From the NCBI GenBank assembly GCA_018613055.1, contig JAGGQZ010000009.1, forward strand, positions 62,001-126,000: a stretch of DNA of 64,000 nt, in the 5' to 3' direction. The position numbers were made by a program, and so were the translations under genes. The stretch is from Chryseobacterium sp. ISL-80 (GTDB lineage Bacteria; Bacillota; Bacilli; Bacillales; Cytobacillaceae). Under the pieces are notes generated by a model. The model was not told where the DNA came from and ran no database searches. It worked only from the letters and a program-made list of their open reading frames with translations. Positions 6,024 to 54,961 of the stretch are shown piece by piece (the stretch's first letter is position 1; each line of letters opens with the position of its first letter).

Positions 6024-6803
6024 ATGACCAATCTAAAAGGCAAAATTGCAATAGTAACTGGCGCAAGCCGTTCAAAAGGAATAGGGGCTGCGATTTGTCG
6101 CTCACTTGCGAATGCTGGGGCAGATGTATTTTTTACACATTGGTCTCCATTTGATGAGGTTAGCGGAAATGGCTCAGACAAAGATTTTCCAAATAATTTA
6201 TGTGAAGAGTTGAAGGATGTAGGAGTTAATGCTGCTCATATGGAGGTTGACTTGAGTAGGAGTGAATCACCTGGTCTTATCATGGACCGGGTTGAAGAAA
6301 CCTTGGGGACACCTAGTATATTAGTGAACAATGCTACTTTTGAATCACCAGCTAATTTTCGTACTTTGAACAGAGAGATTCTGGACAAGCATTACAAAGT
6401 GAATAACAGTGGGACTTTAATGCTATCTATGGAATTTGCGAAAAGGTATGAAAAGGCATTTCCTGAGGGGAAGGATGGCCGAATCATTAATATGGTATCT
6501 AAAGGGCCTGACCCTAACAATCTGGCCTATATAGCGACTAAAGGTATGATCATCGCGATAACCGAGCCTTTATCAGTTGGATTAGCACCCATCGGTATCA
6601 CTGTGAATTCTGTCGATCCTGGTCCCACTGATTCTGGTTGGATCAATGATTAATTAAGAGAACAGCTGCTGCCACTTTTTCCAACTGGAAGAATAGGTGT
6701 ACCGGAAGATGCTGCTCGGTTAGTAACGTTCCTTGCCAGTGACGATTCTGGCTGGATTACTGGACAAACGATAAAATCTGAGGGTGGATTTTTGGGGAAA
6801 TAG
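6024..6803 (+). pseudogene. SDR-family oxidoreductase interrupted by an in-frame TAA
   Basis: The first 209 codons encode a short-chain dehydrogenase: TGASRSKGIG cofactor loop, 'LVNNA', and a YxxxK pair in 'LAYIATKG'. Translation then meets TAA at 6651-6653. Beyond it the same frame continues for 49 codons with the expected end of the family ('PTGRIGVPEDAARLVTFLAS', then 'GWITGQTIKSEGGF') to a TAG at 6801. A single substitution therefore separates this from an intact roughly 259-residue gene. The ribosome binding site GAAGGAGG is intact, so the mutation may be recent. The shortened product lacks the last strand and helices and is unlikely to fold normally. Confidence 0.85.
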
Positions 6804-45931: not shown

Positions 45932-46068
45932 GATTTGAAAAACCTCACTTTTGTACTTTCCTTTATTATTCAACAAGGCAATTTAAATTCCTTTTTTAGC
46001 CATCTGCTTAGCAGAGCGAATTGGAGGACTCTTGAAGACTTGCTTTACAGAAAAAGTTTTGAAGAAAA

Positions 46069-46107
46069 TGTATAGTGTACTTTACAAAATGTAAAGCACA
46101 CTATACA
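46069..46107. promoter_or_regulatory. Palindromic operator/hairpin upstream of XRE gene (copy 1)
   Basis: TGTATAGTGT and ACACTATACA arms flank CTTTACA-aaa-TGTAAAG, a near-perfect 39-bp palindrome. Confidence 0.6.
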
Positions 46108-46153
46108 ATAAGGTTAATATAGGGAAATAAGGAATGATTTTTTTTAATCAGAA

Positions 46154-46945: not shown

Positions 46946-47267
46946 TTTTATAGATAAAATGTTACTGTGTTACCATTTATCAGGATTCGGGACTCCAATA
47001 TGGAAAATATCGCTCAGAATTTCCAGTTTGCGAATAAACGTATCGTTTTTGCGAATAAATGTATCGTTTTTTCGAACAAAAATAAATTTTAGCGAATAAA
47101 ATGTTGGTCTTGGCCAAAGAAGGCTGACCCATATGATTATTCCTTTTAAAAGATAGCACGGAATCGTGGTCGCTCCATTCTTATGCTTGTATTCACCTAG
47201 AAAAATATACCAATCTACCACCGTTTATATTATACTTTTAGAAATATCAAAAAACGGGGTGGTTTCT
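46946..47267. other. Intergenic with short tandem repeat
   Basis: Holds the gcgaataaa repeat (47030-47100). No gene supported. Confidence 0.4.
47030..47100. repeat. Short tandem repeat, 21-22 bp units
   Basis: Two full units (GCGAATAAACGTATCGTTTT and the same with ATG for ACG), then degraded pieces (CGAACAAA, AGCGAATAAA). Confidence 0.7.
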
Positions 47268-51756: not shown

Positions 51757-52065
51757 ATGGTGTATTCAGGAGGTCCAATGACGAAAGCGACGTATTTTGT
51801 CCTGCTCGCTTTAATTCGTCCCAATCATGGCTACCAGCTCATGCACGCAATTACAGAGGTCTCATGGCCGAGTGAATATGAGACCAGGGACATTGTGCGG
51901 AGTCCTTCCGCGGATGAAGAAGGACGGTCTGATTGCTTTGTCTGAGAATGATTGCAGGAGGATGACTTACGAAATGTCGCAGGAGGGCTGCGGAATGAGT
52001 ATGATCAGCTGGAAGCGTTGATTCAGGACTGTTGGATCCTAAAGGAGATGAGGGAAATTGACTAG
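51757..52065 (+). pseudogene. PadR-family regulator broken by frameshifts
   Basis: Three frames together give a PadR protein: 'TKATYFVLLALIRPNHGYQLMHAITEVS' in the first, then 'GRVNMRPGTLCGVLPRMKKDGLIALSEND' in the second from about 51857, then 'LRNEYDQLEALIQDCWILKEMREID' in the third from about 51988. At least two indels are needed, and several residues differ from consensus (Cys where Tyr or Gly is usual, as in 'GTLCG'). It ends overlapping the DUF2812 start, its usual operon partner. The ribosome binding site is intact. Confidence 0.8.
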
Positions 52066-53257
52066 ACCGGTTTATAAGATCCGCCCCAGTGTTTATTGGA
52101 GAATCGGAGAGCATGAATGCTGGTTTGCAGATATGGCGGCACAGGGACTCTTCTTAAAAAAAATGGGCATCCATTTTGCCAGGTTCGAAAAAGGTGAACC
52201 GCGGAGGATGAAATATAGAATCTATGTAACCGAGAAAAAGAAAATCCCTGCTGAACAAATTGAGATTTATGCTGAGAGTGGCTGGAATTTTCTCACCAGC
52301 TATGGGAATTTTCACGTCTTTTCATCACCAGAAGAGCTGAATGCCCCTGAACTTCATCCGGATCCTGCAGAGCAGGCTTATTTATTAAGGGGACTGGATA
52401 AAAAGCTGGCATGGAATGCAATTGGCGTGATTGTTTGCCTTGTTCTAATAATTGGCATGATGGCTTCAATTTGGTTTCTTGATGGCACACCTGCCTTCGC
52501 GATGGTAGAGGGTGCAGCCATCCAGCAGATGATTTTAATGCTTTTTATTGCTTATACTGCCTATCATTCACTTCGTGCAGCTTTTTCCATCCGAACATTG
52601 CGTAAAAAACTAGCAGAAGGTAAACCGATTGACCATAGAGCTCCATGGAAGAAAAAACATCGCACCCACACTACCGCTGCTTTTCTGTTTACAGTGTTAG
52701 CTGGTGCGAGTGCGGTTATTCCTTTCATGCAGCTGGTGAAAATGGATACCAAAACCTTGCCCGAAACAAGCCTGGACTTGCCGATTGTCAGATTGGCAGA
52801 AGTGGAGCAGAATCCCGATTTGGTTCGTTCCGAAATAGTTTATATGAGTGACAATGTCGATTGGGGAAATCGTTACTCGTACAAATGGAGTCCACTGGCA
52901 CCCGTACAATATGAAACAGATGAATCTGGGCAGGTTCCCGGAAAGCTGTGGGACGATAAAAGTGGTGAGTATTCACCAGCGATCCATACACAGTTCTACA
53001 AGCTGACATTTGAAAACATGGCGGATGAGCTAGTTTCTGACTTGATCAAACGATACAAATATGAAAACACCCAGGACGAATATCGGAAGAAGAACCATCC
53101 CGACCTGGATTTGCTGGTTGTCCATGTAGAGAAAGACAAGAAAGAGGTATTTGCCTCAAGAGGTAATGTTGTTATGTATGTCCGGTATCATGGGGATGCT
53201 GAGTTAGGTACGGTTATAGAAAAGGTAGTTGAAAAGACACGTTTACTTCCAGATTAA
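52058..53257 (+). CDS. DUF2812 membrane protein, partner of the PadR gene
   Basis: 399 residues from a TTG at 52058 behind GATGAGGGAAA, overlapping the end of the PadR remnant. The first 90 residues ('HECWFADMAAQGLFLKKMG', 'RIYVTEKK', 'SGWNFLTSYGNFHVFSSP') form the DUF2812 domain; four hydrophobic segments follow (about 122-145, 150-172, 206-230). The C-terminal 160 residues are soluble and probably outside. PadR-DUF2812 pairs often respond to envelope stress. With the regulator broken this gene may be unregulated. Confidence 0.8.
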   Translation: MTRPVYKIRPSVYWRIGEHECWFADMAAQGLFLKKMGIHFARFEKGEPRRMKYRIYVTEKKKIPAEQIEIYAESGWNFLTSYGNFHVFSSPEELNAPELHPDPAEQAYLLRGLDKKLAWNAIGVIVCLVLIIGMMASIWFLDGTPAFAMVEGAAIQQMILMLFIAYTAYHSLRAAFSIRTLRKKLAEGKPIDHRAPWKKKHRTHTTAAFLFTVLAGASAVIPFMQLVKMDTKTLPETSLDLPIVRLAEVEQNPDLVRSEIVYMSDNVDWGNRYSYKWSPLAPVQYETDESGQVPGKLWDDKSGEYSPAIHTQFYKLTFENMADELVSDLIKRYKYENTQDEYRKKNHPDLDLLVVHVEKDKKEVFASRGNVVMYVRYHGDAELGTVIEKVVEKTRLLPD

Positions 53258-53312
53258 AGATGTATGTAAGCATCCATCGCGGGTTGGTCAGATAAGTAGT
53301 TATAGGGATTAG
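53258..53312. other. Short gap before the tandem array
   Basis: No features beyond the DUF2812 stop and TTGGTCAG sequence leading into the array. Confidence 0.3.
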
Positions 53313-53790
53313 TTATTTTGACAGGTTTTATGGTGGCGAGCGAAAAGCTGTCAAAAAACAGTTGTTATTTTGACAGGTTTGATGGCGTAGAGAGAAAAGC
53401 TGTCAAGAATCCGCGGTTATTTTGACAGGTTTGACTGTGTAGAGAGAAAAGCTGTCAAGAAACCATCGTTATTTTGACAGGTTTGATGGTGTAGAGAGAA
53501 AAGCTGTCAAGACTCCGCGGTTATTTTGACAGGTTTGATGGTGTAGAGAGAAAAGCTGTCAAGAATCCGTGGTTATTTTGACAGGTTTGATGGTGTAGAG
53601 AGAAAAGCTGTCAAGAAACCATCGTTATTTTGACAGGTTAGATGGTGTAGAGAGAAAAGCTGTCAAGAATCCGTGGTTATTTTGACAGGTTTGATGGTGT
53701 AGAGAGTAAAGTTGTCAAGAATCCGTGGTTATTTTGACAGGTTGAGAGTTGTTGAGCGAAAAGCTGTCAAAAAATCGTTGTTATTTTGAC
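53313..53790. repeat. 52-bp tandem array, nine full units plus a truncated tenth
   Basis: Units start at 53313, 53365, 53417, 53469, 53521, 53573, 53625, 53677 and 53729, exactly 52 bp apart; a tenth breaks off after TTATTTTGAC at 53781. Each unit holds TTGACAG and CTGTCAA about 23 nt apart, so each can form a hairpin, and neighbouring units can also pair. Inner units differ at few positions; units 1 and 9 are the most divergent and resemble each other. No unique spacers, so not a CRISPR array. Confidence 0.9.
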
Positions 53791-53992
53791 TGTCATCTTA
53801 TCGAGCGTGATCCCTTAAGGATTAACGCTTATTTTTATTGAACATTTCTACTGAATTACCTAGCGGGGTAGCTAGGAAGATATACTCAAAAATATATTTC
53901 GATAAGTAAGTTATTTAAAATGTTATTTTCAATATAAATAAGTTTATAAAGAAGGGATGGGATTTAAATCGAATGGATTCGGAGGAAAATGA
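53791..53992. other. AT-rich gap before the MDR gene
   Basis: No frame or hairpin of note; a ribosome binding site (GGAGG) precedes the MDR start. Confidence 0.3.
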
Positions 53993-54961
53993 ATGAAAGC
54001 CATCGTTTATGACAAATATGGTTCACCCGATGTTCTTCAGTTTGCAGAAGTCAATAAACCTATTCCTCAAGACAACCAGGTACTGGTAAAGATTCATGCT
54101 GCATCCTTAAATTATGGGAATTTAGTGCTTCTAAAAGGAGAGCCCTTCTTAGCGCGCTTCGCCTTTGGCCTTGTAAAACCAAAATACTCCATACCTGGAG
54201 GTGACATTGCAGGCCGTGTCGAAGCAGTTGGTAAAGATGTTAAACAGTTTGAGCTAGGTCAAGATGTATTTGGAGACCTCTCTCGTTGTGGCTGGGGAGG
54301 ATTTGCTGAATATGTAGCTGTTCCCGAGAATGCACTGGCATTGAAACCGGTAAACACCACTTTTGAAGAAGCAGCCTCGGTACCTATGGCCGCAGTTACA
54401 GCCTTACAAGGTTTAAAAGATAAAGGCAAGATTCAGGCGGGACAAAAGGTGTTGATTAATGGTGCCTCCGGAGGTGTAGGAACTTTTGCCGTACAAATCG
54501 CCAAATCATTCGGAGCGAACGTAACTGGTGTTTGCAGTACGAGGAATTTAGAAATTCTGCGATCCATTGGTGCAGATCATGTCATTGATTATACGAAAGA
54601 GGATTTTACCGAAAAAGGACAGAAGTATGACTTGATTCTTGGGGTTAACGGACACCATCCGATTAATGCTTATAAGCGGTCATTGAATGAGGATGGAACT
54701 TTTGTACACGTTGGGGGTTCGGGGTCCCAAATGTTTCAAACAATGACCTTAGGATCCTGGTTCTCACTCACTGGAAAGAAAAATATGTCTAGCTTATTAC
54801 AAAGGCAAAAGCAAAAAGATTTAATCTATATCAAAGAACTCCTTGAAGCCGGAAAAGTGAAGCCTGTCATTGATAGAACTTTTAAGTTGAGTGAAGTGAA
54901 AGAAGCTTTCGAGTATTTTGAACAAGGGCACGCTCAAGGAAAAGTAGTTATGACAATATGA
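53993..54961 (+). CDS. NAD(P)-dependent MDR (zinc-independent quinone-oxidoreductase-like) alcohol dehydrogenase
   Basis: 322 residues. 'MKAIVYDKYGSPDVLQFAEV' and 'GGDIAGRVEAVGKDV' are the MDR start; nucleotide loop 'VLINGASGGVGTFAVQIAKSFGA' with the AxxGGVG pattern; 'GADHVIDYTKEDF' is typical of this group. The catalytic zinc Cys set is absent, so it is a zinc-free reductase of quinones or enones. Terminator-like hairpin after the stop. Confidence 0.9.
   Translation: MKAIVYDKYGSPDVLQFAEVNKPIPQDNQVLVKIHAASLNYGNLVLLKGEPFLARFAFGLVKPKYSIPGGDIAGRVEAVGKDVKQFELGQDVFGDLSRCGWGGFAEYVAVPENALALKPVNTTFEEAASVPMAAVTALQGLKDKGKIQAGQKVLINGASGGVGTFAVQIAKSFGANVTGVCSTRNLEILRSIGADHVIDYTKEDFTEKGQKYDLILGVNGHHPINAYKRSLNEDGTFVHVGGSGSQMFQTMTLGSWFSLTGKKNMSSLLQRQKQKDLIYIKELLEAGKVKPVIDRTFKLSEVKEAFEYFEQGHAQGKVVMTI

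Follow-up and report, generated by a model that had tools for sequence, protein, structure and literature searches.

The array and its neighbours

Within the window, by which we mean the whole 64,000-nucleotide stretch of DNA analysed here, a tandem array lies between two genes on the + strand and is sense to both of them. The upstream gene (52058..53257, 399 aa) encodes a product that is membrane-protein-like by eye, and its stop codon falls 55 bp before the array start. The downstream gene (53993..54961, 322 aa) is, also by eye, quinone-oxidoreductase-like; used as a probe for the orthologous site it gave a good match in one genome only (G001). The array runs from 53313 to 53780 on the + strand and comprises nine units of exactly 52 bp without indels, with starts at 53313 + 52k (53313, 53365, 53417, 53469, 53521, 53573, 53625, 53677 and 53729). 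TRF on the window reports 53312-53790 with a period of 52, 9.2 copies, 88% matches and 0% indels, which together with the unit alignment confirms the strict nine-unit period proposed by an earlier reading made from the letters alone, referred to below as the sequence-only reading.

Every unit contains a pair of inverted arms. In unit 1 the left arm (53318..53324, +) is TTGACAG, with GACAG as its core, and the right arm (53348..53354, +) is CTGTCAA; both recur every 52 bp, and the base following the left arm and the base preceding the right arm are the conserved Gs of a G.G mismatch. Between the arms lies a G/A-rich loop of 15 nt (53329..53343, +), whose equivalent in every unit contributes to the polarity of the array. 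The alternation of TTGACAG and CTGTCAA that had been claimed for the array holds almost throughout, the left arm being present in nine of nine units and the right arm in eight, with TTGTCAA in unit 8. The recurring tail types are likewise as described (CCATC in units 3 and 6, CCGTG in units 5, 7 and 8, CCGCG in units 2 and 4), and the internal block duplication read from them is supported, with homogenised inner units. The 5' edge unit (53313..53364, +) and the 3' edge unit (53729..53780, +) are decayed as stated, agreeing with inner units at 39-44 of 52 positions where inner units agree with one another at 45-51 of 52, although the supposed likeness of the two edges to each other is weak (43/52). 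Beyond the last full unit a decayed remnant of a tenth, consisting of the left arm only, occupies 53781..53797 (+), with TTATTTTGACTGTCA from 53781 and the remnant read as TTATTTTGACTGTCATC.

Abundance and relation to the 52-nt repeat class

The source genome (G000, genus Mesobacillus, a 4.75-Mb draft in 35 contigs) holds about 40 (35-40) arrays of this 52-bp family, and the number of units differs between species at orthologous sites, for example 9 against 11, 10 against 20 and 13 against 5; the array is thus neither unique nor fixed in copy number, the two properties together that the sequence-only reading had held against its own interpretation. A loosened core pattern finds 778 matches on both strands of the complete genome G011, as against one for the reversed control, far more than chance would give. 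Counted per strand, this pattern gives 319 matches in G011, 343 in the source genome, 14 in G002 and none in G014, which has no units; G006 has 241 pattern matches and G008 none. Since the arrays are absent from some species (G014, G008), they are dispensable. Most Mesobacillus genomes were matched and practically none from other genera of the order, and the named records that carry the family are those of M. selenatarsenatis, M. boroniphilus and relatives. Outside the genus, 306 matches with both the period and the 33-nt core of Mesobacillus come from G331 (5.43 Mb), which belongs to another family; genus g92 has related 52-bp arrays, and when a two-unit pattern is used, three more genomes of the class prove to contain a few. 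No array match came from plasmids, phages or viral contigs. Several contigs of the source genome (C1, C10, C12, C13, C15, C21) end in arrays, where short-read assemblies break, so that array copy numbers at these ends are unreliable and possibly too low.

These arrays belong to a class that has already been published. Tandem repeats of 52 nt were described in about 30% of the Bacillus species studied by Subirana and Messeguer (PMC8161180), with carriers that include B. selenatarsenatis, B. boroniphilus and B. subterraneus, now placed in Mesobacillus. The class was delimited by a repeat length of 51-53 nt, at least four repeats, a non-coding location, several occurrences per genome and specificity to species groups; its members keep a constant length without sequence conservation and have no known function, although nucleoid proteins or small RNA were suggested (PMC8161180). 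The window array agrees with this description in length and number, in being non-coding, in having several relatives per genome and in its taxon-specific, Mesobacillus-centred distribution. We infer in addition that the AAAGCTGTC signal of G331 fits the B. alkalitelluris of PMC8161180.

Where the present arrays go beyond that description is in their inverted arms, which are under strong constraint, in their orientation with respect to replication and in the conservation of their sites. Term searches in the texts of PMC8161180 and two sister papers turned up nothing about the orientation of these repeats relative to replication or about palindromes or hairpins in them, and these features, inverted repeats included, are new here relative to the literature searched, a comparison that carries no claim to priority because subscription literature lay mostly outside the search. 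Inverted repeats are not confined to Mesobacillus: 16 of 27 published 52-nt consensus repeats contain them above shuffles at p <= 0.05, with about 1.4 expected, the 27 including related families of one species and so not being independent cases. The over-represented arm pairs among these families are GACA with TGTC (6) and ATGA with TCAT (8), and dyad symmetry recurs though the sequence differs. In Table 1 of PMC8161180 the arms vary from genus to genus, and families whose arms are unrelated can occur together in a single genome.

Anatomy of the unit

The general layout of the unit is TTATTTTGACAGGTTT, a 15-nt loop, AAAGCTGTCAAGAA and a spacer. GACA and TGTC are practically invariant, GACA across 36 unlinked arrays. 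Pairs 7-43 and 8-42 covary between subfamilies (T-A to C-G and T-A to G-C respectively), which was attained for neither when the columns were shuffled 1000 times. By contrast, 35 of 36 G011 arrays have a G.G mismatch at position 14/36, and A.A predominates at 4/46. The loop is 72-75% purine with a GC skew of 0.47-0.52 (0.52 and 0.47), and this G/A bias is confined to one loop, the spacer and flanks having a skew of 0.04-0.06; the conserved G.G mismatch and the G/A-rich loop together give the unit its polarity. Spacing between units is exactly 52 bp in 699 of 726 cases from two genomes (51 in seven, 53 in four). At 10.4 bp per turn this is five turns of the helix, which may be a numerical coincidence.

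The earlier suggestion that each unit can form a hairpin is borne out by folding, in which units do better than shuffles. For single-stranded DNA of two Mesobacillus units the + strand is the stabler (-7.3 vs -3.8 and -12.9 vs -9.3 kcal/mol), and for co-oriented arrays this strand is the lagging-strand template. One way to account for the arrays is as a selfish or neutral hairpin satellite that spreads by slippage or single-strand annealing at the hairpins, is founded preferentially on the lagging-strand template, which would fix its orientation, and serves no host function; we regard this as possible if rather doubtful. A single G331 unit, when folded, has the reverse strand preference (-10.4 for the opposite strand vs -8.5), and a satellite of this kind leaves the constant 52-bp period across genera unexplained. 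Nor does it suit the letters of the arms. Arms that had only to pair should be free to change so long as each change was compensated, whereas GACA hardly varies over the 36 unlinked arrays, and at pair 7-43 a wobble has no advantage over a C.A mismatch. As non-wobble mismatches are tolerated, coevolving half-sites account for the data no less well than a hairpin does.

Constraint and turnover

The contrast between arms and loops becomes clearest when arrays are compared at increasing distance. Between the source genome and G011 at 20 orthologous sites, with unrelated arrays taken from G011, arm identity is 0.941 within arrays, 0.940 between orthologous arrays and 0.928 between unrelated (paralogous) arrays; it is partly a matter of ascertainment, since arrays were detected by their arms with at most 6 mismatches in 20, although the observed arms are far closer than this limit. 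Loop identity falls over the same comparisons from 0.733 through 0.616 to 0.386, and the spacers fall likewise. Homogenisation within arrays cannot make arms alike in unlinked arrays, but selection by a reader of GACAG/CTGTC could, and the constancy of arms against the drift of loops is better explained by a factor acting in trans than solely by the capacity to form hairpins.

Conserved parts alternating with variable parts at a fixed spacing recall CRISPR. In the present arrays the variable parts are homogenised, loops and spacers being 72-73% identical within an array, there are two of them per unit, and a genome has dozens of arrays; the unique spacers of a CRISPR array are not seen.

Among 54 arrays with eight or more units, drawn from two genomes, both ends agree with the consensus of their array at 0.77-0.79 and the middle at 0.90. 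Such similar decay of the two ends is as expected of homogenisation by unequal recombination or slippage, and directional growth was not seen. Array sites and orientation are conserved between species, the orientation being the same in all 262 confident ordered pairs and different in none. At one locus (L185) the gap is empty in relatives of one clade, where the adjoining gap has an array in the same direction. Homogenised interiors with decayed edges, unit numbers that vary between species and this empty site with its neighbour are all in keeping with a hairpin satellite, which would explain the hairpins, the turnover and possibly the orientation, though not the invariance of the arm letters.

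Gene context and transcription

None of the arrays in the source genome and G011 spans an ORF. Their neighbours are tandem genes in 36 cases, convergent genes in nine and divergent genes in nine. An array transcribed into RNA hairpins, acting as a small-RNA source, a sponge or a 3' UTR structure, has been proposed (PMC8161180, PMC8625621) and draws on the RNA-seq transcription of 52-nt repeats in B. coagulans reported there, to which may be added that the units beat shuffles in folding and that in the window the array has the same sense as the gene upstream. The wider context makes this account quite unlikely for the present family: of the 36 arrays flanked by tandem genes, 12 run antisense to both neighbours, nine arrays lie between divergent genes, and the array at L185 is found beyond the intrinsic terminator of the upstream gene. 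The G.G mismatch kept in 35 of 36 G011 arrays also speaks against it. No Rfam family matched in the window, and the TTGACA to which the sequence-only reading had drawn attention is not supported as part of a promoter, as no sigma-70 promoter-like site (TTGACA followed at 16-18 nt by a -10 hexamer) was found inside the window array. The role as a transcript hairpin suggested at that stage is further weakened by the finding that arrays are oriented by replication rather than by gene strand; others on the same list of roles are still live hypotheses.

Orientation with respect to replication

In the complete genome G011, with dnaA at 1 and dif at 2,548,034, 31 of the 34 arrays whose orientation is confident run with the replication fork (binomial p about 4e-7 by our own arithmetic), among the fork-oriented ones the array at 2,325,486 that is orthologous to that of the window. 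This count uses the full 53-column profile and is preferred to the 34/36 given by a core-only call; with the full profile, apparent flips at orthologous sites turn out to be misassigned near-palindromic arrays. The flanking genes of these arrays are fork-oriented in only 42 of 62 cases, and arrays follow the fork irrespective of whether two (14/15), one (13/15) or none (4/4) of their flanking genes do. When orientation is taken from the BLAST strand and placed by dnaA, the corresponding counts are 32/32 in G009, 18/21 in G015 and 25/31 in G018, the Mesobacillus counts not being independent of one another because orthologous sites are inherited in common; in G331, from the other family, the bias is not significant (18/28). 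As orientation never differs at orthologous sites, polarity is inherited and dates to the founding events. Local strand skew was rejected as the source of the polarity, the spacer and flanks being unskewed and the loop skew keeping to unit orientation in two of three anti-oriented arrays.

The genes for IS200-like Y1 transposases in G011 (C1: 983832, 1725920, 2047242, 2959158, 3209395 and 3863957) are fork-oriented in six of six cases. Such an orientation is known for single-strand transposition. As these elements insert into single-stranded DNA, the fork orientation that they share with the arrays lends some support to a hairpin satellite, and it also invites the view that the arrays derive from a non-autonomous mobile element, of REP/BIME-like or IS200-type single-stranded DNA kind, which inserted in replication orientation and was then amplified. 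The imperfect intergenic hairpin with its mismatch is shared with REP/BIME and IS200/IS605 ends, the lagging-strand orientation with the IS200 type (PMC6006769), and gain or loss at neighbouring gaps would also agree. We nonetheless consider this origin unlikely. Y1 transposases or RAYTs do not correlate with the arrays and were rejected as their partners, G006 having 241 matches and no Y1 transposase match while the array-poor G002 and the array-less G008 have Y1. Moreover, the arrays are strictly head-to-tail at 52 bp, their sites are stably common to species, no plasmid, phage or viral contig was found to have them, and at the empty L185 site, the one site compared by eye, no clear target-site duplication was seen.

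An origin-to-terminus polarity like that of the G011 arrays (31/34) is also found in KOPS, read by FtsK, and SRS, read by SpoIIIE, and with the G/A-rich loop lying on the fork-oriented strand the arrays might be thought to be guide sequences in which SpoIIIE, SftA or FtsK reads the loop. This we judge very improbable. KOPS and SRS are dispersed single octamers, whereas the arrays are tandem and have inverted arms; the octamer read by the gamma domain, the B. subtilis SRS GAGAAGGG, occurs in the loops of none of 36 arrays, where shuffled loops would give 0.8, KOPS-like octamers show no enrichment beyond composition, and it is the arms that are conserved, not the loop.

A proposed phased polar binding array

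We favour, tentatively and with somewhat less than even confidence, a polar binding array, helically phased (52 = 5 x 10.4 bp), for a candidate factor that would recognise a specific sequence and act in connection with replication or segregation. Its main rival is the hairpin satellite; an RNA array, a mobile element and KOPS/SRS-like guides fit the observations less well. The arms GACAG ... CTGTC would constitute two inverted half-sites per unit, parted by the G/A-rich 15-nt loop, and a period of five turns would place equivalent half-sites on the same face of the DNA, where a putative sequence-specific factor may bind them cooperatively. A fixed orientation toward the terminus would make the bound complex directional, and its likely role would be in replication-linked chromosome organisation or segregation. 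Unequal recombination or slippage would keep array interiors homogeneous while selection held the arms. What has been observed in Mesobacillus is the arrays themselves, the strictness of their period, the conservation of their arms and sites, the drift of their loops and their orientation by replication; the factor, its cooperativity and its role we infer. No binding factor was identified. Against a binding array stand its dispensability in G014 and G008, the lack of significant polarity in G331 (18/28), and the arms that differ between genera or are unrelated within one genome (PMC8161180), which do not suit a single factor.

A broader form of this proposal we think conceivable but doubtful. 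Dozens of phased arrays, running from origin to terminus on both replichores, would form a polar chromosome element for a predicted factor that reads the direction of replication, and the 52-nt class of Firmicutes would represent lineage-specific versions of one system, in which dyad symmetry and length may be conserved while the recognised letters evolve. The puzzle of the 52-nt repeats, a constant length with changing sequence and no function, becomes open to testing once they are seen as inverted-repeat units with constrained arms and an orientation set by replication, the questions being which factor might bind the arms and whether array direction matters in replication or segregation.

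Other repeats

Repeats of other kinds were seen alongside the arrays. Tandem repeats of 20-21 nt that share TTTGCGAATAAA lie at 47027-47080 in the window and at 6362-6443 of locus L188, in 2.6 and about 4 copies, and look like the second, 20-21-nt, repeat class described in the same genus in PMC8161180. TRF lists 46065-46108 of the window as a weak repeat of 21 bp; the inverted pair GTATAGTGTACTTTACA ... TGTAAAGCACACTATAC lying there is probably an operator or terminator-like palindrome. In other Bacillales (G060, G099, G207, G228, G262, G311, G371 and others) there are dispersed single palindromes GACAGGTTCNTTGTCCC...GGGACAANGAACCTGTC, REP-like in look, that have GACAGGTT in common with the array arms. 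Finally, contig C1 of G308 contains a 36-bp palindrome GACAGGTTCCTTATTATACCAAATCAGGAACCTGTC (e.g. at 564460, 1361295, 1362114 and 1362933), three copies of which are 819 bp apart; with 17 pattern matches per strand across that genome, the copies are possibly the ends of an element.
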